DNA of 64,000 nt from the NCBI RefSeq assembly GCF_003024685.1, contig NZ_PYLQ01000004.1, positions 62,001 to 126,000 of the forward strand, given 5' to 3'. Within the stretch, counting starts at the first letter, position 1. Every line of letters begins with the position of its first letter. This DNA comes from Faecalibacillus intestinalis. Lineage in GTDB: Bacteria > Bacillota_I > Bacilli_A > Erysipelotrichales > Coprobacillaceae. The position numbers and the translations under genes are program-made. This document shows positions 1,676 to 55,786 of this stretch, in pieces. The notes below the pieces were generated by a model. That model was not told the origin of the DNA. It searched no databases and was given only the letters and a program-made list of their open reading frames with translations.

Positions 1676-3007
1676 TTACTCCTTATAAATCGTTGCTTTA
1701 ACGTAACCGTCTTTTAAATAGATAGAAACATTATCTTCATTATTTAAATCATCTATACTTGAAACATATTGATTTTCTTTTTTTACTAAAGCATAGCCCC
1801 TTTCTAACGTTTGTAAAGGACTTAATGCATTTAATTTAGAAATCAACATACTTAAGTTATTTCGATTGGCTTTAAGTTTGTTATGAAAATTTATTTTTAA
1901 TAAATTTTCATATGTTTGAATCTTTTGTTGATAATGACTTACAAATACTTTATTTTGAGATTGTAATTGTAAATTAAGTTTTGTATAAATAACCATATTA
2001 TTATTTAAACGTTTTTCCATGAAATTAGAAATTTTATCTTGTAAATAAGAAACATATTGTAAGTGATCACCATATAGTTTTTCAGGATTTTTAAATAAAT
2101 AAAAGTGTGTTAAGCGATTTATTCTTGTATTCAATGTTTCAATTTTATACTTCATATTTGATTTTAAAAGACCATCTAACATTGATAAATGCTTATACAT
2201 ATCTTCTATATTAGGTGTGGCTTCAATAGCTGCATAAGTAGGTGTTAACGCTCTTAAATCACATACATAATCACATATTGTAAAATCTGTTTCATGCCCT
2301 ATTCCACAAATAATAGGTGTTTTTAATTCAAAAATTGTTCTTGCTAATGCTTCTTCATTAAAATTCCATAAATTCTCTAACGAGCCACCACCTCGTGCCA
2401 AAATAATGGTATTAAAGTGAAGTTCATCTACGAATTTCAAAGTTGAAATAATTTTAAAATATGCGTCTTTCCCCTGTACAGGTATAGGAAAAATGATAAC
2501 TCTACACACAGGAAAACGTTTTTTTAAAGTACGCATTACATCCATTAATGCAGCACTAGGATATGCTGATAAAACAGCAATTTTGCTAGGGTAAGAAGGA
2601 ATATTTTTTTTATATTTTTCATCAAACAAACCTTCTTGTAGTAATGATTTTTTCAAATTCTCAAATTTTAAAAATAATGAACCTAGTCCATCAGGTTCAA
2701 TATTTTTAACTATTAATTGATTATATCCTGTAACTGCATAAACAGAAACAGTTGCTTCTATTAAAACTGAATCACCATTTTTTACATCAAAATTTAATTG
2801 TTCAGCAAATCCTTTATACATAATCGCACTAATATGTGATTTACCATCTTTTAGTGTAAAATACAAATGACCAGAACTCATATTTCTTTTAAAATTAGAT
2901 ATTTCACCCTTGATGAAGACATGCTGTAATTGCATATCAACATCTATTTTTCGCTTTAAATAGTTATTTAAAGCAGAAACTGTTATATATTTTTTATCCA
3001 ATGGCAC
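1676..3007 (-). CDS. xseA: Exodeoxyribonuclease VII large subunit
   Basis: This 443-residue protein has an N-terminal OB-fold (about 5-100) that binds DNA, a catalytic domain holding GHETDFTICDYVCDLRALTPT (shown in part) and ARGGGSLENLWNF, and a long coiled-coil stalk (about 260-390) that binds XseB. It cuts single-stranded DNA to oligonucleotides. The start is GTG with GGAG six bases upstream, inside the end of nusB (14-base overlap). A TTG two codons later is possible but has no better ribosome site. Gene order nusB-xseA-xseB-ispA matches B. subtilis except that folD is absent. Confidence 0.93.
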   Translation of the reverse strand: MPLDKKYITVSALNNYLKRKIDVDMQLQHVFIKGEISNFKRNMSSGHLYFTLKDGKSHISAIMYKGFAEQLNFDVKNGDSVLIEATVSVYAVTGYNQLIVKNIEPDGLGSLFLKFENLKKSLLQEGLFDEKYKKNIPSYPSKIAVLSAYPSAALMDVMRTLKKRFPVCRVIIFPIPVQGKDAYFKIISTLKFVDELHFNTIILARGGGSLENLWNFNEEALARTIFELKTPIICGIGHETDFTICDYVCDLRALTPTYAAIEATPNIEDMYKHLSMLDGLLKSNMKYKIETLNTRINRLTHFYLFKNPEKLYGDHLQYVSYLQDKISNFMEKRLNNNMVIYTKLNLQLQSQNKVFVSHYQQKIQTYENLLKINFHNKLKANRNNLSMLISKLNALSPLQTLERGYALVKKENQYVSSIDDLNNEDNVSIYLKDGYVKATIYKE

Positions 3008-3392
3008 CTAAAACTCCATTAATAAATTTATAAGCATCTTCATCACAGTATTTTTTTGCTAATTCAACTGCTTGATTAATTGAAATTTCTTTAGAAACTT
3101 CATTTCGTTCATAAATAGCTACATAAAGAATTGCTTTTTCCATCATAGAAAGACGATCAATTGACCATGATTTTTTCAAATTCTTTTCAATAAGAGGCAC
3201 ATATTCATCAATACGTTCAATCGTATTGAAAACAATTTCTTTACAAAGTTCAATTTCTCTTTCATCCATTCTTGGTTTATAACATTCGTTTAAATAATTC
3301 ATAATTTCTTCTTCTGTTGAATTTGTTAAAAGATATTGGTAAACTGCAATAACAGCTTTTTCTCTAATTAATTTTTTTCTTACTTTTTCCAT
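2994..3392 (-). CDS. nusB: Transcription antitermination factor NusB
   Basis: NusB binds boxA RNA with S10 and supports rRNA antitermination. This copy has 132 residues from the chosen start MEKVRKKLIREKAVIAVYQ. Family signatures are the C-terminal SINQAVELAKKYCDEDAYKFINGVLGAI and the central MMEKAILYVAIYE. A longer reading from 3419 is open, but GGAAGGAA lies six bases before the ATG at 3392 and the family begins there. A terminator upstream at about 3463-3487 separates it from yqhY, so nusB probably has its own promoter in the short AT-rich gap; I could not place that promoter with confidence. Confidence 0.92.
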   Translation of the reverse strand: MEKVRKKLIREKAVIAVYQYLLTNSTEEEIMNYLNECYKPRMDEREIELCKEIVFNTIERIDEYVPLIEKNLKKSWSIDRLSMMEKAILYVAIYERNEVSKEISINQAVELAKKYCDEDAYKFINGVLGAIG

Positions 3393-3462
3393 ACACATTT
3401 CCTTCCAAAATATATTCATATTCTATCATAGTTTCTTACGAAATTAAATAAATAAACACAAT

Positions 3463-3487
3463 AAAAAAGGAATTGCTAGACAATCCC
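3463..3487 (-). terminator. Intrinsic terminator after yqhY
   Basis: GGGATTG pairs with CAATTCC (one G-U pair) around a TCTAG loop, followed by TTTTTTATT on the minus strand. The yqhY stop codon touches the 5' arm. Confidence 0.72.
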
Positions 3488-3801
3488 TAGAATTTAATTT
3501 TATTGACATTAACATTCACTTTAACATTTCTAAAGCCAATATATCTATCAATAGCATTTACAACTTCGTTTTGAATTTCACTAACAACTTTTCCAACATT
3601 AAGCCCATAATCAATGACAATGTCAATACCGATGATTACTTGATTATGATCATTGATTTCAATATTTACAGAACTTTTCCCACCATCAAAATCAATTCCG
3701 TTTATTTTACTCACTTCATGATTAGTAATTGCTTGAAAAACAGATAATTCAATATATTGTTCACCTAAATTATTTTTCTTTTCTACTGTATAGTATTCCA
3801 T
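3487..3801 (-). CDS. yqhY: Asp23/Gls24 family envelope stress response protein
   Basis: A 104-residue Asp23/Gls24 domain protein. The family pattern is visible: an early LSVFQAITNHEVSKINGI, then VNIEINDHNQVIIGIDIVIDYGLNV and VVSEIQNEVVNAIDRYIG, ending in VNVNVNKIKF. In B. subtilis yqhY lies between accC and nusB and its loss disturbs fatty acid synthesis control; here it keeps its place next to nusB although accB and accC are missing. No transmembrane segment is present, so it is likely cytoplasmic. The molecular function of the family is unresolved. Confidence 0.88.
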   Translation of the reverse strand: MEYYTVEKKNNLGEQYIELSVFQAITNHEVSKINGIDFDGGKSSVNIEINDHNQVIIGIDIVIDYGLNVGKVVSEIQNEVVNAIDRYIGFRNVKVNVNVNKIKF

Positions 3802-3872: not shown

Positions 3873-4331
3873 TTAGTCTTCTACAAATTTAACTTCAATG
3901 ATATATCCATTATATTTATTATGAATATGCTTGATGATTTTATTAGCATCTTTCGAAGTTGCATCTTTTAATTTTACAACTACTTTCATGTGTCCACCAT
4001 CAATCTCACAAAAACATTCTTTATACCCTTTATCAGTTAATAACTGACAGATATCTTTTTCATTTTTTATAATTGCTTTTGTTTTTTCATTAGAAGTAAG
4101 TGCTGTTGAAATTTCTTTTTCAGATGCTTTTGAAGAGGAAATTACCGTATTATTGTCATTAATTTTATTTTCATGATTTTTATTAAGTTCACTTTGTAAA
4201 ATTTCTATTCTGCTTAATGATTTTTTTGAGACTGTGTCATCTTGATCAATTGGTGGTACTAATAAATAATAAATTGATAAAACAAGAATCAATGTAAATA
4301 ATGATAAAAATGTTATAGCTTGTTTATTCAT
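3873..4331 (-). CDS. spoIIIAH: Stage III sporulation protein AH-like (SpoIIIAH) membrane protein
   Basis: SpoIIIAH sits in the mother-cell membrane during engulfment, its extracellular YscJ/FliF-like domain pairing with forespore SpoIIQ to form a channel. This 152-residue protein begins MNKQAITFLSLFTLILVLSIY, the typical N-terminal helix of SpoIIIAH. It has a charged, low-complexity linker (about 30-90) and a compact C-terminal domain (about 95-150) with KVVVKLKDA and IIKHIHNKYNG. GAGGGG is six bases before the chosen ATG at 4331. A longer reading into efp (4463) is rejected because it overlaps a conserved gene and has no homology. The other spoIIIA genes are not beside it. A sigma-E-like promoter precedes it. 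Confidence 0.82.
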   Translation of the reverse strand: MNKQAITFLSLFTLILVLSIYYLLVPPIDQDDTVSKKSLSRIEILQSELNKNHENKINDNNTVISSSKASEKEISTALTSNEKTKAIIKNEKDICQLLTDKGYKECFCEIDGGHMKVVVKLKDATSKDANKIIKHIHNKYNGYIIEVKFVED

Positions 4332-4350
4332 GAACATCCCCTCATTACCT

Positions 4351-4379
4351 ACTATATGCAATCCCGTTTTAGAATATGA
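4351..4379 (-). promoter_or_regulatory. Sigma-E-like promoter for spoIIIAH
   Basis: Minus strand: TCATATT at -35 (rc of 4373-4379), a 14-base spacer, then CATATAGT at -10 (rc of 4351-4358). The Bacillus/Clostridium sigma-E consensus is KMATATT, 14-15 bases, CATACANT, so the -35 is a full match and the -10 has one mismatch. It lies directly between the efp terminator and the spoIIIAH ribosome site, which implies a very short leader. Confidence 0.7.
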
Positions 4380-4404
4380 AAAAACACTAGGTTTTGTCCT
4401 AGTG
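4379..4404 (-). terminator. Intrinsic terminator after efp copy 1
   Basis: CACTAGG, loop ACAAAA, CCTAGTG, then TTTTTTC on the minus strand. The efp stop codon lies immediately before the stem. It also overlaps the -35 element of the spoIIIAH promoter at its far edge. Confidence 0.85.
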
Positions 4405-4962
4405 CTAAGCTCTGCCTGAATATTTTCCTTCAGCAGTTGAAATAACGACCATTTCTCCTTCATTAATAAATAAAGGGACTTTGATTTGGAATCCAGTTTC
4501 TAAAACAGCATTTTTTGTTGCTCCAGTTGCTGTATCTCCTTTAACCGCTTGTTCTGCTTCAGTAATTTGTAAAGTAACTTTATCAGGTAATTGTACACCT
4601 AATACTTCACCTTCAAAACTTCTAATCGTTGCTGTATCACTTTCTTTTAAGAAATTCTTTTCCCATTCTAAATTTTCAGCTGGAATTTCAATTTGTTCAT
4701 ATGTTTCTCCATCCATAAATACAAATGCATCCCCTGTATTATACAAGTATTGCATTTCTTTTTTATCGATTTGTGCTCTTTTTACTTTATCATTTCCACC
4801 GAATGTCATTTCAGTAGTAGATCCAGTACGTAAGTTTTTCATTTTAACTTTAATATTTGCTGCTGCTCTGGCAGTTTTATTATGAGAATAATCTAATACT
4901 ACAAATAAATTTCCATCCATTTGAAAAGTAACACCTGGTTTTAAATCACTAACGTTAATCAT
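4405..4962 (-). CDS. efp: Elongation factor P, copy 1 (Arg at loop tip)
   Basis: EF-P enters the ribosomal E site and speeds peptide bonds at polyproline stretches. This 185-residue protein has the KOW-like domain I (about 1-65) and two OB domains, ending GKYSGRA. The domain I loop reads HNKTARAAAN where B. subtilis EF-P has HVKPGKGAAF, so the modified Lys32 is replaced by Arg32 and the PGKG turn is lost. A second EF-P at 55229-55786 keeps the Lys. This copy occupies the ancestral locus next to spoIIIA and yqhY remnants. It has its own terminator and is divergent from comGA. Confidence 0.92.
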   Translation of the reverse strand: MINVSDLKPGVTFQMDGNLFVVLDYSHNKTARAAANIKVKMKNLRTGSTTEMTFGGNDKVKRAQIDKKEMQYLYNTGDAFVFMDGETYEQIEIPAENLEWEKNFLKESDTATIRSFEGEVLGVQLPDKVTLQITEAEQAVKGDTATGATKNAVLETGFQIKVPLFINEGEMVVISTAEGKYSGRA

Positions 4963-5136: not shown

Positions 5137-6096
5137 ATGGAGGAACTATTTGAACAGATTATTTATCAAGCTATTAAAAAAAATGTAAGTGATATTCATT
5201 TACAATGTACAGAGAAAGGAGTGATTAAATTTAGGATTTGTGGGGAACTACTTACTTATGAAACCTATGAAAAAACAAATATTATTCAATTAATGAATTA
5301 TATTCGTTTCATTTCTAAAATCGATTTAAATTATTACCGTAAACCTCAAACAGGACATTATGTGTATGTTTTAAATAATAAAAAATATAACTTAAGAATT
5401 TCCTCACTTATTGGAAAAGATATGGATTCCATTGTTATTCGTATCCTAAATAATCATCAAAAATTATCATTAGAAAATATTAGTAAAGATATTCATGTTT
5501 ATCAATTTTTAAAACAGATTGTCCAAAAGGATAGCGGATTATTTGTAATAAGTGGTGCAACTGGCTCTGGGAAATCTACAACATTATATGCTATTTTAGA
5601 TACAATTAATAAGATGTATAAAAAAAATATTATTACACTAGAGGATCCTATTGAAATCAATAAAGATTATTGTTTGCAAATTGAAATTGATGACAGAAAA
5701 GGTATCAGCTATCATGAATCGTTAAAACAAATATTAAGACATGACCCAGATGTCATAATGGTCGGTGAAGTACGTGATGAAAAGACAGCTCAATTAGCAC
5801 TTACATGTGCTTTAACTGGACATCTTGTACTAACAACTATTCATGCAAGTAATTGTATAAATACGATTAAAAGATTAGAAAACTTAAACATTTCATCTCT
5901 TGATTTAGAAGACGTTCTTCTTGGTATCATGACACAAAAAATGCGTTTTAACGATAAAAAAGAAGTATTTATTTTAAGTGAATACATTGATCAAAAAAAT
6001 TTATTAAAATATTTTGATCGAAAGAAAATAGATTACTATGATTTTTCAAAAGCTGCATGCACATTAAAAAATGTAGGTGTTTTAAATGAAAAATAA
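5137..6096 (+). CDS. comGA: Competence type IV pilus assembly ATPase ComGA
   Basis: A GspE/PilB-type traffic ATPase that powers assembly of the DNA-uptake pseudopilus on the cytoplasmic face. The 319-residue protein has Walker A GATGSGKSTT (about 156-165), the Asp box around ITLEDPIE, Walker B DPDVIMVGEVRD and the His box TTIHAS. It is shorter than many ComGA proteins (about 350). The start MEELFEQII is preceded by AGGAGG at a six-base spacing; an in-frame upstream ATG at 5068 has no ribosome site and adds a non-conserved tail. First gene of the comG operon, overlapping comGB by 11 bases. Confidence 0.93.
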   Translation: MEELFEQIIYQAIKKNVSDIHLQCTEKGVIKFRICGELLTYETYEKTNIIQLMNYIRFISKIDLNYYRKPQTGHYVYVLNNKKYNLRISSLIGKDMDSIVIRILNNHQKLSLENISKDIHVYQFLKQIVQKDSGLFVISGATGSGKSTTLYAILDTINKMYKKNIITLEDPIEINKDYCLQIEIDDRKGISYHESLKQILRHDPDVIMVGEVRDEKTAQLALTCALTGHLVLTTIHASNCINTIKRLENLNISSLDLEDVLLGIMTQKMRFNDKKEVFILSEYIDQKNLLKYFDRKKIDYYDFSKAACTLKNVGVLNEK

Positions 6097-7087
6097 ATTA
6101 CTTAGTTTTATTGATCTACTTATTTTTTTCTTTAATCAAGGATATTCATTACAAGAAACGCTTGATTTTTGCAGTTTGCTTAACTATGAAAAAGAAGTAA
6201 AGGAAATAAAGAACTATTTAAATCAAGGTCTTTCTCTTGACGAAATTTTTATAATGCTTCCCTTTCCTACTCTATTTAAAGAATATTATTCATTTTTTAA
6301 AAATGAATTCACATTAGAAACTGCATTAAAAAAGTCAATTGAAATTTGCAAAAAAAGAGATGAGTATAAAAATATTTTTTTAAAAAAATTGGCATATCCA
6401 ATTATATTGCTTATTTTCTTATTTGTTTTTTCTATTTTTACTGTTTTTTACTTATTACCACAGGTTGAAATTTTATTTAACGATTTTGATATTCAAAAAT
6501 CATTTATTATTCAATGTCTATTTGTATTATTACATGCAATTCCTATTTTTTTAACACTAATTACTATAATAAATATTATTTTAATGATATTTATCTATCA
6601 AAGCATTGCAAAACAAAAATTCAATCAGATAGATTTTTTGATTAATCACACACATTTTATTAAAAAATTGATTTGTAAGTATTATTCGTTAAAGTTTGCA
6701 ATTTATTATAATGAATTACTCATACAGCACTATGATACAACATCCATTATTGAAACTTTATATGATAAAATAACTGATAGTGATATTAAAATGATTGTTT
6801 ATGAACTTTATCGTTTAATTGTAAATGGTCATGATTTTAATTTAGCAGTTAATGATTTTCCTTACTTTTCAGATGATTTTAAAAAATTTATATCTATTAT
6901 TCAAAATAGTCATGAAAACCAAAGTTTAGAAAATTATATCCAACTTACATTTATGCAATTAAATCAATTTGTTTCTAAATTTATAAAAATCATAGTTCCA
7001 TTGATTTATGGTTTTGTTGCTACATTTGTAATTGTTGTGTATGTTTCAATAATAATTCCTATGATGAATGTTGTCTCAAATTTATAA
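6086..7087 (+). CDS. comGB: Competence type IV pilus assembly membrane protein ComGB
   Basis: A polytopic inner-membrane platform protein of the GspF/PilC (T2SSF) family that couples ComGA to pseudopilin assembly. The 333-residue protein has hydrophobic segments near 103-128 (YPIILLIFLFVFSIFTVFYL), about 148-172, and 300-328 at the C-terminus (IKIIVPLIYGFVATFVIVVY). Two cytoplasmic F domains flank the middle pair of segments, although the first is short and Phe-rich. The start overlaps comGA by 11 bases, consistent with coupled translation. Sequence is more diverged than comGA, but position and topology support the call. Confidence 0.9.
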   Translation: MKNKLLSFIDLLIFFFNQGYSLQETLDFCSLLNYEKEVKEIKNYLNQGLSLDEIFIMLPFPTLFKEYYSFFKNEFTLETALKKSIEICKKRDEYKNIFLKKLAYPIILLIFLFVFSIFTVFYLLPQVEILFNDFDIQKSFIIQCLFVLLHAIPIFLTLITIINIILMIFIYQSIAKQKFNQIDFLINHTHFIKKLICKYYSLKFAIYYNELLIQHYDTTSIIETLYDKITDSDIKMIVYELYRLIVNGHDFNLAVNDFPYFSDDFKKFISIIQNSHENQSLENYIQLTFMQLNQFVSKFIKIIVPLIYGFVATFVIVVYVSIIIPMMNVVSNL

Positions 7088-7107
7088 AAAGGAGGATTAT
7101 AAGGATT

Positions 7108-7419
7108 ATGAATTCTAATAAAAAAGGTTTTACACTCATTGAAATGATTTTTTGTATTTCTGTAATACTAGTTATTTTACTGCTTGTTATTCCAAATGTT
7201 ACAAGTAAAAATCGTTTAGTAAAAGAAAAAAGTTGTGATGCGCAAATTGAAGTTGTTAACTCACAAATCATTTTGTACGAAATCGAGCATGGAGAATTAC
7301 CAACTAGTATGTCTCAATTAACTTCTGGCAGCCATCCTTATTTAAAGGAAAAACAAGCTGTTTGTCCTTCAGGACTTGCCATAAGAATAAGTGATGGTGA
7401 AGCCTATGTTTCAAAATAA
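7108..7419 (+). CDS. comGC: Major competence pseudopilin ComGC
   Basis: A 103-residue prepilin. The class III signal KKGFTLIEM is followed by a hydrophobic helix to about residue 32. ComC-type peptidase would cut between Gly7 and Phe8 and methylate the new N-terminus. Two cysteines (about 44 and 88) could form a stabilising disulfide, as known for ComGC. It is the third gene of the operon, after a 20-base gap with AAAGGAGGA-type ribosome site, and is the main subunit of the DNA-uptake pseudopilus. No prepilin peptidase gene lies in this window. Confidence 0.92.
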   Translation: MNSNKKGFTLIEMIFCISVILVILLLVIPNVTSKNRLVKEKSCDAQIEVVNSQIILYEIEHGELPTSMSQLTSGSHPYLKEKQAVCPSGLAIRISDGEAYVSK

Positions 7420-7813
7420 AGGATTTACTTTGATTGAAATGTTGTTAGTAATATCTATTATATTAACATTGTCAGTACTTTCATTCCCTTTTATGAATAC
7501 AAAAACAATTTATATAACGGATGAATGTGTAAAAAAACAAATAGAAATGATTATTAATCAGGCTAAAAGTAAGGCAATAATTAGTCATGAAAAAGTTAGT
7601 TTAATTGTATCAAAACAAGAAATATCTTTTATTGATCATCAAAAAAAATACAGAGTAGTTTTACCTAATAATTATTTTTTCAATAATATTAAAGAAATAT
7701 ATTTCAATAAAGATGGCAATATAAATCAAGCAAATCATATTGATCTCATTGCACCCAAAAAGAAATATACCCTTATTTTTCATCTTGGAGCTGGTGATTA
7801 TGAGTTTAAATAA
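7406..7813 (+). CDS. comGD: Competence minor pseudopilin ComGD
   Basis: A 135-residue prepilin-like protein starting MFQNKGFTLIEMLLVISII, so it has the Gly-Phe cleavage site and Glu5 of the mature chain. A soluble domain of about 105 residues follows. The start at 7406 overlaps comGC by 14 bases; in-frame GTG and ATG codons from 7391 exist but place extra residues before the short basic leader. Assigned as ComGD from order and size. Minor pseudopilins prime the pilus at its tip. Confidence 0.85.
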   Translation: MFQNKGFTLIEMLLVISIILTLSVLSFPFMNTKTIYITDECVKKQIEMIINQAKSKAIISHEKVSLIVSKQEISFIDHQKKYRVVLPNNYFFNNIKEIYFNKDGNINQANHIDLIAPKKKYTLIFHLGAGDYEFK

Positions 7814-8024
7814 AAAAGGTTTTACTTTGATTGAAAGTCTTTTTGCTTTTAGTATCTTTACTACTGTTATTATTCTATTAGTGTCTTTATATGTAACAAA
7901 TTCAAAAACAAACATCAAAGTCAATCAAGAATACGAAACTTATCAGTCAAAGAAACAACAAATAGAATATACACTTAATTTAGATGAAGGAATAGAGACA
8001 TGTCTAAAAAAGGCTTTACATTAG
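7800..8024 (+). CDS. comGE: Competence minor pseudopilin ComGE
   Basis: A short prepilin-like protein of 74 residues, MSLNKKGFTLIESLFAFSIF, with the class III signal and Glu at mature position 5. The soluble part is only about 40 residues. The start overlaps comGD by 14 bases and has GGAG upstream; a longer in-frame reading from 7740 is not needed. ComGE is assigned from its position between comGD and comGF. In B. subtilis ComGE is somewhat longer, so this is a reduced form. Confidence 0.8.
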   Translation: MSLNKKGFTLIESLFAFSIFTTVIILLVSLYVTNSKTNIKVNQEYETYQSKKQQIEYTLNLDEGIETCLKKALH

Positions 8025-8410
8025 TAGAAGTATTATTGAGTTTATCTATCACATTACTTATTGTTTTAAACTGTTCATTACTAGTGAAAGTTTTAAAAAT
8101 TTCTAATCAATCAAAATATATCGATACATCGCTAGAAAATGCAATATTTTCACTTAGTAATGAACTTATAACGGCTAAAAATATAGAATATGGTGATAGT
8201 TTAAGTTTTCTCGATGAAAATGACGATTCTCATAAAATAATACTACAAAATAAACGACTCGTTATTACACCTGGACATCATATTTTATATCATGACATTG
8301 ATTCTGTATATTTTGAAAATACGAATGGATTTATCAAAATAAATTTAATGAGTAATAATAAAGAATATCAATTTATTGTAGGTAGTGATTATGAAAAAAA
8401 AGAAGAATAA
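8000..8410 (+). CDS. comGF: Competence minor pseudopilin ComGF
   Basis: A 136-residue prepilin-like protein starting MSKKGFTLVEVLLSLSITLL. The Gly-Phe cleavage site, mature Glu5 and hydrophobic helix are all present. It overlaps comGE by 25 bases. Its soluble part contains alternating strands (IDTSLENAIFSLSNELI, YEFENTNG-like segments) as in ComGF. The end overlaps comGG by 20 bases. Confidence 0.83.
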   Translation: MSKKGFTLVEVLLSLSITLLIVLNCSLLVKVLKISNQSKYIDTSLENAIFSLSNELITAKNIEYGDSLSFLDENDDSHKIILQNKRLVITPGHHILYHDIDSVYFENTNGFIKINLMSNNKEYQFIVGSDYEKKEE

Positions 8411-8762
8411 CGGAAATGTTCTACAAATCACCCTTATTTTATTGCTCATGCTTTCTCTTAATATATTTTCATTATGTCATTTGACAATTCTAAATAGTCA
8501 AGGTTTTCAATCTATGAAACAAACGAATGATATAAGACTACTTAAAAATATACTTATTGCAAATTATAAATACGAAAATCAAAATAGTATTTTATTAAGT
8601 AATTATTTAGAACTTGAAAATTACACAATTTCGTATACTGTTGATGATATGGGAGATTATTTTTTAATAGAAACAAGATTAAAAAATGATCGATATAAAC
8701 TCAATATCACATTTTATCTTGAATTGGATAAAGAAAAAAATGTTATAAAAAAAGTAGAATAA
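8391..8762 (+). CDS. comGG: ComGG-like protein of the competence pseudopilus
   Basis: The last gene of the operon encodes 123 residues with one N-terminal hydrophobic helix (about 12-32) after a basic MKKKKNNGN leader. The canonical G-F-T-L-x-E prepilin motif is absent: the junction reads NGNVLQITLILLL with no Phe or Glu at the usual sites. ComGG in other Firmicutes is also the most divergent subunit. The ATG at 8391 follows GGTAGTG; a GTG two codons earlier is less likely. The call rests on order, size and the membrane helix. Confidence 0.72.
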   Translation: MKKKKNNGNVLQITLILLLMLSLNIFSLCHLTILNSQGFQSMKQTNDIRLLKNILIANYKYENQNSILLSNYLELENYTISYTVDDMGDYFLIETRLKNDRYKLNITFYLELDKEKNVIKKVE

Positions 8763-55212: not shown

Positions 55213-55238
55213 ATAAAAAAGAGCTTTATTAAGCTCTT
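55213..55238 (-). terminator. Intrinsic terminator after efp copy 2
   Basis: AAGAGCTT, AATA, AAGCTCTT, TTTTTATC on the minus strand: a perfect 8-base stem containing the efp stop in its loop and ending three bases before the SDR start codon. Confidence 0.85.
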
Positions 55239-55786
55239 CCTGCGTATTTTCCATCAGCTGAAAAAACAACGATTTTTTCACCTTGTTCAATAAATTGAGG
55301 AACTCTAAGAGTTAAACCTGTTTCAGTTTTAGCGTCTTTTGTTTGGTTAGATGGTGCCCCTTTGATAGCTGGATCTGTTTCTACAATAGTTAATTCTACT
55401 TTTTCAGAAACAGAAACGTTTAATAATAATCCTTCAAAGAATACTAAATAAACTTCAGTTCCTTCGACAATAAAGTATTTATTATAACCAACTTGTTCTT
55501 CAGATAATTCATATGTATCATATGTTTCCATATCCATGAAGTAGAAGGTATTGTCTGCTTCATAAGAAAATTGAGCTGCTTTTTTAGAAATATTAGCTTG
55601 ATCAAATTTAGTTGAAGCATTGAAGTTCTTTTCTTGAATAGCTCCTGTTTTCAAGTTTCTCATTTTAGTTTTTAAAATAGCTGCTCCTTTACCAGGTTTA
55701 ACATGTTGGAAATCCAACACTTGGCAAGGATCACCATCAATAATTAAAGTTAATCCTGTTCTAAAATCTCCTGCACTAATTGCCAT
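55229..55786 (-). CDS. efp: Elongation factor P, copy 2 (canonical Lys loop)
   Basis: A 185-residue EF-P. The domain I loop is HVKPGKGAAIL with Lys33 at the tip, as in B. subtilis EF-P, which is modified there with 5-aminopentanol. The N-terminus ISAGDFRTGLTLIIDG and C-terminus GKYAGRA fit. Domain II is rather diverged (YLVFFEGLLLNVSVSEKVEL). It is not at the ancestral efp locus, is monocistronic with a strong promoter and terminator, and coexists with the Arg-tip copy at 4405-4962. Confidence 0.94.
   Translation of the reverse strand: MAISAGDFRTGLTLIIDGDPCQVLDFQHVKPGKGAAILKTKMRNLKTGAIQEKNFNASTKFDQANISKKAAQFSYEADNTFYFMDMETYDTYELSEEQVGYNKYFIVEGTEVYLVFFEGLLLNVSVSEKVELTIVETDPAIKGAPSNQTKDAKTETGLTLRVPQFIEQGEKIVVFSADGKYAGRA

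Follow-up and report, generated by a model that had tools for sequence, protein, structure and literature searches.

The closest described counterpart of the locus reported here is the SpoIIIAA-AH:SpoIIQ (A-Q) complex of Bacillus subtilis, whose role as a feeding tube, a zipper or a recruiting platform is still argued. In wall-less B. subtilis, SpoIIQ and SpoIIIAH alone drive zipper-like engulfment (PMC4605598; PMC4982068). The direct contact between the two proteins, which needs Leu109 of SpoIIQ and involves pairing of SpoIIIAH residues 212–214 with SpoIIQ, can be lost in this species and is dispensable for sporulation (PMC12720343). In Clostridioides difficile, engulfment fails when spoIIQ or spoIIIAH is mutated, a more severe defect than that of spoIIIA mutants, which complete it in 10–20% of cells if they still make SpoIIIAH; a second promoter within the operon drives spoIIIAG-AH, and the authors suggest that the pair served engulfment ancestrally (PMC4605598). 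For the Erysipelotrichia, Davis et al. (2013) did not find the spoIIIA genes and saw SpoIIQ (PMC3749518), a 2021 survey described most spoIIIA genes as lost (PMC7924749), and in a 2024 survey spoIIQ and 'spoIIAH' (in our reading spoIIIAH) are listed among the genes that RF39 has in addition to those of Erysipelotrichales (PMC10868615).

The window analysed here, a stretch of 64,000 nucleotides from the genome of Faecalibacillus intestinalis (the home genome; family Coprobacillaceae, order Erysipelotrichales), carries spoIIIAH without the other genes of its operon. The A-Q complex of B. subtilis is matched by an orthologous SpoIIIAH with the same fold, the same locus flanks and a sigma-E-like promoter after efp, and by an orthologue of SpoIIQ that retains Leu109 and has a degenerate first zinc ligand. 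Unlike in B. subtilis, SpoIIIAE and SpoIIIAG are absent across our order sample and SpoIIIAA and SpoIIIAC/AD from the home genome, accBC is not at the locus, and spoIIIAH stands as a single cistron behind a promoter of its own. The C. difficile pair is comparable through its internal spoIIIAG-AH promoter and an engulfment role partly separable from SpoIIIAA-AF (PMC4605598), but that species has a full spoIIIA operon.

The spoIIIAH gene occupies positions 3873–4331 of the window on the minus strand and encodes 152 residues plus the stop. Its conserved start is the ATG at 4331; a longer open reading frame up to 4463 was rejected, being merely an in-frame extension that reaches into efp. The protein is composed of a membrane anchor (residues 3–24), a flexible linker, two helices and a ring-building-motif domain (residues about 41–150). 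It scores 44.2 bits against PF12685, the Pfam SpoIIIAH family (cut-off 30.6), and a lineage profile built from 22 relatives matches the B. subtilis SpoIIIAH chains 3UZ0_A (E = 2.8e-17) and 3TUF_A (E = 2.8e-16) far above all other entries. The AlphaFold model (mean pLDDT 77, pTM 0.57) consists of the membrane helix, two helices and a beta-beta-alpha-beta domain (H-H-E-E-H-E). Its top structural match in Foldseek and VIA-align is SpoIIIAH 3UZ0_C, with a Z score of 16.7 and an r.m.s. deviation of 1.2 Å over 112 residues, followed by PrgK (Z 10.1), EscJ (Z 9.6) and FliF. These proteins of type III secretion systems and flagella have a similar C-terminal fold, but SpoIIIAH is far nearer and no secretion apparatus partners are found here. 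The gene is a true SpoIIIAH. Three other PF12685 matches in the home genome were rejected as a second copy, all scoring at most 18.7 bits, below the cut-off, and covering only the N-terminal part of the profile.

The home gene order is efp, spoIIIAH, yqhY, nusB and xseA. An efp-family gene with three EF-P Pfam domains (4405–4962, minus strand) bounds the old spoIIIA locus on its upstream side, and the downstream flank of the old spoIIIA-accBC locus is formed by yqhY (Asp23 family; 3487–3801, minus strand; PF03780, 39.5 bits) and nusB (2994–3419, minus strand; TIGR01951, 99.1 bits). The B. subtilis order at this place is efp, spoIIIAA-AH, accB-accC, yqhY and nusB, so that the home locus resembles the ancestral one minus spoIIIAA-AG and accBC. 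At the window locus, the only place covered for these genes, neither accBC nor spoIIIAB or spoIIIAF is found. Both flanks, efp and yqhY-nusB, are kept at Coprobacillaceae spoIIIAH loci, and in several Erysipelotrichaceae yqhY alone remains, downstream, and spoIIIAH is preceded by a RelA-like gene or by others. In a third group of Bacilli, efp lies upstream at about one third of the loci and gerE and gerM, recognized by their GerE and Germane domains, lie downstream. Judging by genus names, for instance Candidatus Aphodocola, which NCBI places no more precisely than Bacilli incertae sedis, this group is probably RF39-like. Another Bacilli lineage thus has the same orphan, as efp-spoIIIAH-gerE-gerM, and RF39 is its likely name. 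The three arrangements triangulate one ancestral place, with the caution that the efp adjoining spoIIIAH in Coprobacillaceae is a diverged paralogue. As a separate observation, the RF39-like loci (L106–L156, e.g. L118:4998–6817) may represent a compact spoIIIAH-gerE-gerM-like cluster of engulfment and late mother-cell genes.

The promoter lies at 4351–4379 on the minus strand, with a −35 box TCATATT (4379–4373), a 14-base spacer and a −10 box CATATAGT (4358–4351). When 20 spoIIIAH upstream regions are aligned, the TCATA and CATA blocks are invariant and the spacer is not. The motif TCATA-N14..17-CATATA is found upstream of 23 of the 24 Coprobacillaceae spoIIIAH genes, at 0.0003 per shuffled upstream region, and a single time in the 64-kb window, before spoIIIAH; the Holdemania loci have TCATAA-N15-CATACAGT in a GC-richer background. 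Between efp and this promoter stands a terminator-like hairpin 3' of efp (4380–4405, minus strand; CACTAGGACAAAACCTAGTG-TTTTTT, i.e. CACTAG...CTAGTG-T6), inferred by reading the sequence; its T-run reaches right up to the promoter. The internal promoter of C. difficile is a precedent for expressing spoIIIAH independently. Most spoIVA genes in the family likewise have TCATATA as their −10 box, and 4 of 20 add a −35-like box at that spacing; spoIVA is a standard sigma-E gene. The sigma assignment is unproved, as the exact two-box motif precedes only some spoIVA genes and others have the −10 box alone, and mother-cell expression under sigma-E is inferred from motif conservation, without transcript data. 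The spoIVA upstream regions (L007, L011 and L205–L224) have in common the −10 TCATATA and differ in their −35; several carry GTTCTA about 16 bases upstream, perhaps an alternative −35, which is also present before spoIIIAH in RF39-like loci.

A preliminary description of the window, made from the letters alone, had proposed a lone SpoIIIAH-like gene behind the promoter TCATATT-N14-CATATAGT, with efp, yqhY and nusB in their expected places. The identity holds by Pfam, lineage profile and fold, the flanks hold, and the promoter holds exactly as proposed. It had further held that the reading would fail if the C-terminal domain lacked the YscJ/FliF-like fold or if a complete spoIIIA operon, with another spoIIIAH, lay elsewhere: the model and its PDB matches pass the fold test, and no second SpoIIIAH passes the cut-off in the home genome. 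The comparison of the locus across related genomes that it suggested yields the three arrangements above and one inferred ancestral place.

The channel parts were searched for in the home genome, which is rated 100% complete in 53 contigs, and in a sample of 196 genomes of the order Erysipelotrichales. SpoIIIAE exceeds the cut-off neither in the home genome nor in any of the 196, with a working B. subtilis positive control; this 321-position family gives no match at all in 194 genomes and sub-threshold fragments with stops in the two others. No SpoIIIAG passes the cut-off in any of the 196, home genome included (best 21.9 bits versus 147.7). SpoIIIAC/AD and the SpoIIIAA ATPase are likewise not found over cut-off in the home genome. 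Two SpoIIIAC candidates were rejected (17.1 and 13.7 bits versus 24), the better one having a stop, as was a SpoIIIAA candidate, a 62-residue patch in a 393-residue open reading frame (29.6 bits versus 281.3), whose profile weakly matches all 14 control genomes. Every tested channel part is lost, SpoIIIAE and SpoIIIAG order-wide and SpoIIIAA, SpoIIIAC and SpoIIIAD from the home genome, with SpoIIIAB and SpoIIIAF covered at the locus only, in agreement with Davis et al. (PMC3749518) and the 2021 survey (PMC7924749).

In the same sample, SpoIIIAH closely follows two other sporulation proteins. A plain Pfam search undercounts it, PF12685 alone finding it over cut-off in 41 genomes and scoring 16 of the 57 final positives under cut-off, so it was counted with the lineage profile, leaving out a match of 20.7 bits in genome G004. 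SpoIIIAH is present in 57 of the 196 genomes, from two families and about 26 genera, SpoIVA also in 57, and full-length SpoIIQ in 58, the latter separated from other M23 proteins by a clear score gap (74.8 to 52.7 bits). SpoIIIAH and SpoIIQ occur together in 56 genomes, SpoIIIAH alone in 1, SpoIIQ alone in 2 and neither in 137; SpoIIIAH and SpoIVA occur together in 54, with three singletons of each kind and 136 genomes with neither. These counts come from related genomes, and Fisher values overstate the evidence. This near-perfect co-occurrence places SpoIIIAH in the sporulation programme, spore formation by the home species itself not being shown here. SpoIIIAH is undetectable in two genomes with SpoIIQ and SpoIVA, G017 and G061, either by true loss or through an assembly gap. 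Of the 57 SpoIIIAH-positive genomes, 46 also have GerM, which in B. subtilis assists SpoIIQ; in the other 11, the home genome among them, it is undetected.

The home spoIIQ, which encodes an M23 protein (L038), lies between spoIID and an mbl-like gene. It matches SpoIIQ of the SpoIIQ-SpoIIIAH crystal (3TUF_B) with E = 4e-32, and scores 171.2 bits (E = 3e-50) against the NCBIfam equivalog NF053738 without reaching the cut-off of 250; synteny, the PDB match and the strong family match support an orthologue despite this score. In other spore-formers spoIIID lies between spoIIQ and mbl; the corresponding gap here is about 105 bases (L038 1347–1453), and spoIIID is absent from this place. The first zinc ligand of SpoIIQ, part of an intact site in C. 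difficile, is Asn or Ser in 28 of 28 aligned proteins, and the peptidase is therefore probably inactive. The position of Leu109 is Leu in 25 of the 28 order proteins and hydrophobic in all. On the SpoIIIAH side, residues V147-K-F149 are equivalent to 212–214, and Val147, the counterpart of Val212, does not vary among 63 sequences. No other part of the soluble domain is as conserved as the strand holding these residues (145–149; 3.35 bits versus 2.16 for residues 49–123), a pattern that a structural core strand might also show. Conservation of the binding surfaces is shown; physical binding in this lineage is inferred from it, without binding data. Unusually, the membrane helix of SpoIIIAH is more conserved than its soluble domain (3.86 versus 2.77 bits), which is not the case for SpoIIQ (2.80 for the helix versus 3.26 for the domain). 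Residues 8–26 of SpoIIIAH (window about 4310–4254), with the pattern FLxLFxLxLxLSxYYxxxP, are nearly invariant across orders, with no known membrane partner left.

Purifying selection acts on spoIIIAH, with dN/dS values of 0.03–0.13 in seven close pairs and intact frames. The window gene gives 0.36 against Faecalibacillus faecis; this was not taken as relaxed selection, since between these two genomes xseA, nusB and comGB nearby give 0.27–0.33 and synonymous sites approach saturation. The home SpoIIIAH diverges at about the rate of xseA or nusB.

The reading that we favour, with a probability of roughly 0.65, is that SpoIIIAH and SpoIIQ, without the SpoIIIA channel, serve here as a zipper and scaffold for engulfment, the function being inferred. 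In this view, spoIIIAH would be the last surviving spoIIIA cistron, still in the ancestral position, flanked by efp and yqhY-nusB, and its promoter would most simply be the old spoIIIA promoter, moved beside it by the deletion of spoIIIAA-AG. SpoIIIAH would be made in the mother cell, sit in the engulfing membrane via its single helix and, across the intermembrane space, bind the ectodomain of SpoIIQ from the forespore; during engulfment the pair would work as a zipper or ratchet and also provide a positioning scaffold. Without the SpoIIIA ATPase, the export-gate proteins and the SpoIIIAG ring, no canonical feeding tube would form. A lineage without the tested channel parts that has the pair fits the suggestion that engulfment is its ancestral role. 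Against the zipper stand the dispensability of the contact in B. subtilis, the two genomes without SpoIIIAH, the undetected home GerM and a divergence as fast as that of xseA and nusB. The preliminary description had left two possibilities, channel parts lying elsewhere or a reduced SpoIIIAH-SpoIIQ zipper without ATPase and rings; the second is supported, zipper action remaining an inference. Its claim that spoIIIAA-AG are gone holds genome-wide for the tested SpoIIIAA, AC/AD, AE and AG and at the locus only for AB and AF, its claim on accBC at the locus only, and the complete operon elsewhere that would have refuted it did not appear in the genome-wide search for SpoIIIAA, AC/AD, AE and AG. 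The search for spoIIQ that it proposed found the orthologue beside spoIID, and its argument that a conserved promoter speaks against simple decay stands, in agreement with selection and co-occurrence.

Such decay, in which spoIIIAH would be a remnant heading for loss, could be defended from the disappearance of the rest of the operon and from at least two genomes with SpoIIQ and SpoIVA that lack the gene. It is very unlikely given the conserved promoter, the co-occurrence with SpoIIQ and SpoIVA, the low dN/dS and intact frames, and the retention of spoIIIAH in 54 of the 57 SpoIVA-positive genomes over two families and in another order-level lineage. We also give little credit to the possibility that SpoIIIAA-AG are present but beyond the reach of the profiles: SpoIIIAH itself falls below the Pfam cut-off in 16 of 57 genomes and is fully recovered by the lineage profile, but SpoIIIAE is without a match in 194 of 196 genomes, the other two having only sub-threshold fragments with stops, SpoIIIAG reaches no more than 21.9 bits of 147.7, and Davis et al. 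likewise found none (PMC3749518).

Two further alternatives are unlikely but harder to dismiss. A channel might persist, with unrelated membrane proteins replacing SpoIIIAA-AG beside SpoIIIAH and SpoIIQ; the intact ring-building fold is compatible with it, and the over-conserved helix of SpoIIIAH, not paralleled in SpoIIQ, hints at a specific membrane contact. However, no candidate partner is present at the locus in Coprobacillaceae or Erysipelotrichaceae, and self-association or targeting might account for the conserved anchor. The pair might instead be mainly a landmark placing, for example, SpoIVFA/SpoIVFB, SpoIIE and GerM, without a mechanical role in engulfment. For this speak the spoIVFA- and spoIVFB-like genes (in the order minD-IVFA-IVFB-rplU, and named by gene order, M23 domain and sequence), the gerE and gerM genes after spoIIIAH in the RF39-like lineage, and work in B. 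subtilis that favours seeing the essential role of SpoIIQ in recruitment (PMC12720343); against it, GerM is undetectable in 11 of the 57 SpoIIIAH-positive genomes, including the home genome, and the landmark overlaps the zipper-and-scaffold reading and is hard to separate from it by sequence. A bolder version of the zipper-and-scaffold reading, which we hold only tentatively and would not bet on, is an ancient and stable endosporulation without the SpoIIIA channel in two order-level lineages of gut Bacilli, SpoIIIAH-SpoIIQ alone spanning the intermembrane space; neither engulfment nor sigma-G activation would in that case require a feeding tube, the hyperconserved helix perhaps engaging an unknown partner.

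No report of an orphan SpoIIIAH in Erysipelotrichales was met in the literature searched, and a prior mention cannot be excluded. The present data contradict the 2024 inventory (PMC10868615), and the absence of all spoIIIA genes noted in 2013 is also corrected (PMC3749518). The functions ascribed to the complex are hard to separate in B. subtilis and C. difficile, which have all the parts. The lineages described here have apparently performed the separation, the channel parts being gone and the pair retained under selection, which points to a channel-independent function and offers natural, partly culturable systems for testing it. Sporulation predictors leaning on spoIIIAE, spoIIIAD or spoIIIAG need caution: SpoMAG reports spoIIIAE and spoIIIAD in all its predicted spore-formers, and its Erysipelotrichales and RF39 genomes scored 0% (PMC12536801).

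No Rfam family match was obtained at any point of the window. Two EF-P genes are present, at 4405–4962 and 55229–55786, both on the minus strand. The one beside spoIIIAH has Arg at the usual modified loop Lys (HNKTARAA versus HVKPGKGAA) and the other is canonical; the Arg type recurs next to spoIIIAH in most Coprobacillaceae, with a further diverged form at L025, L028 and L034. Divergent from efp lies a competence-pilus-like operon (5137–8762, plus strand) with comGA, comGB and several pilin-like genes, which is found near the locus in many relatives.
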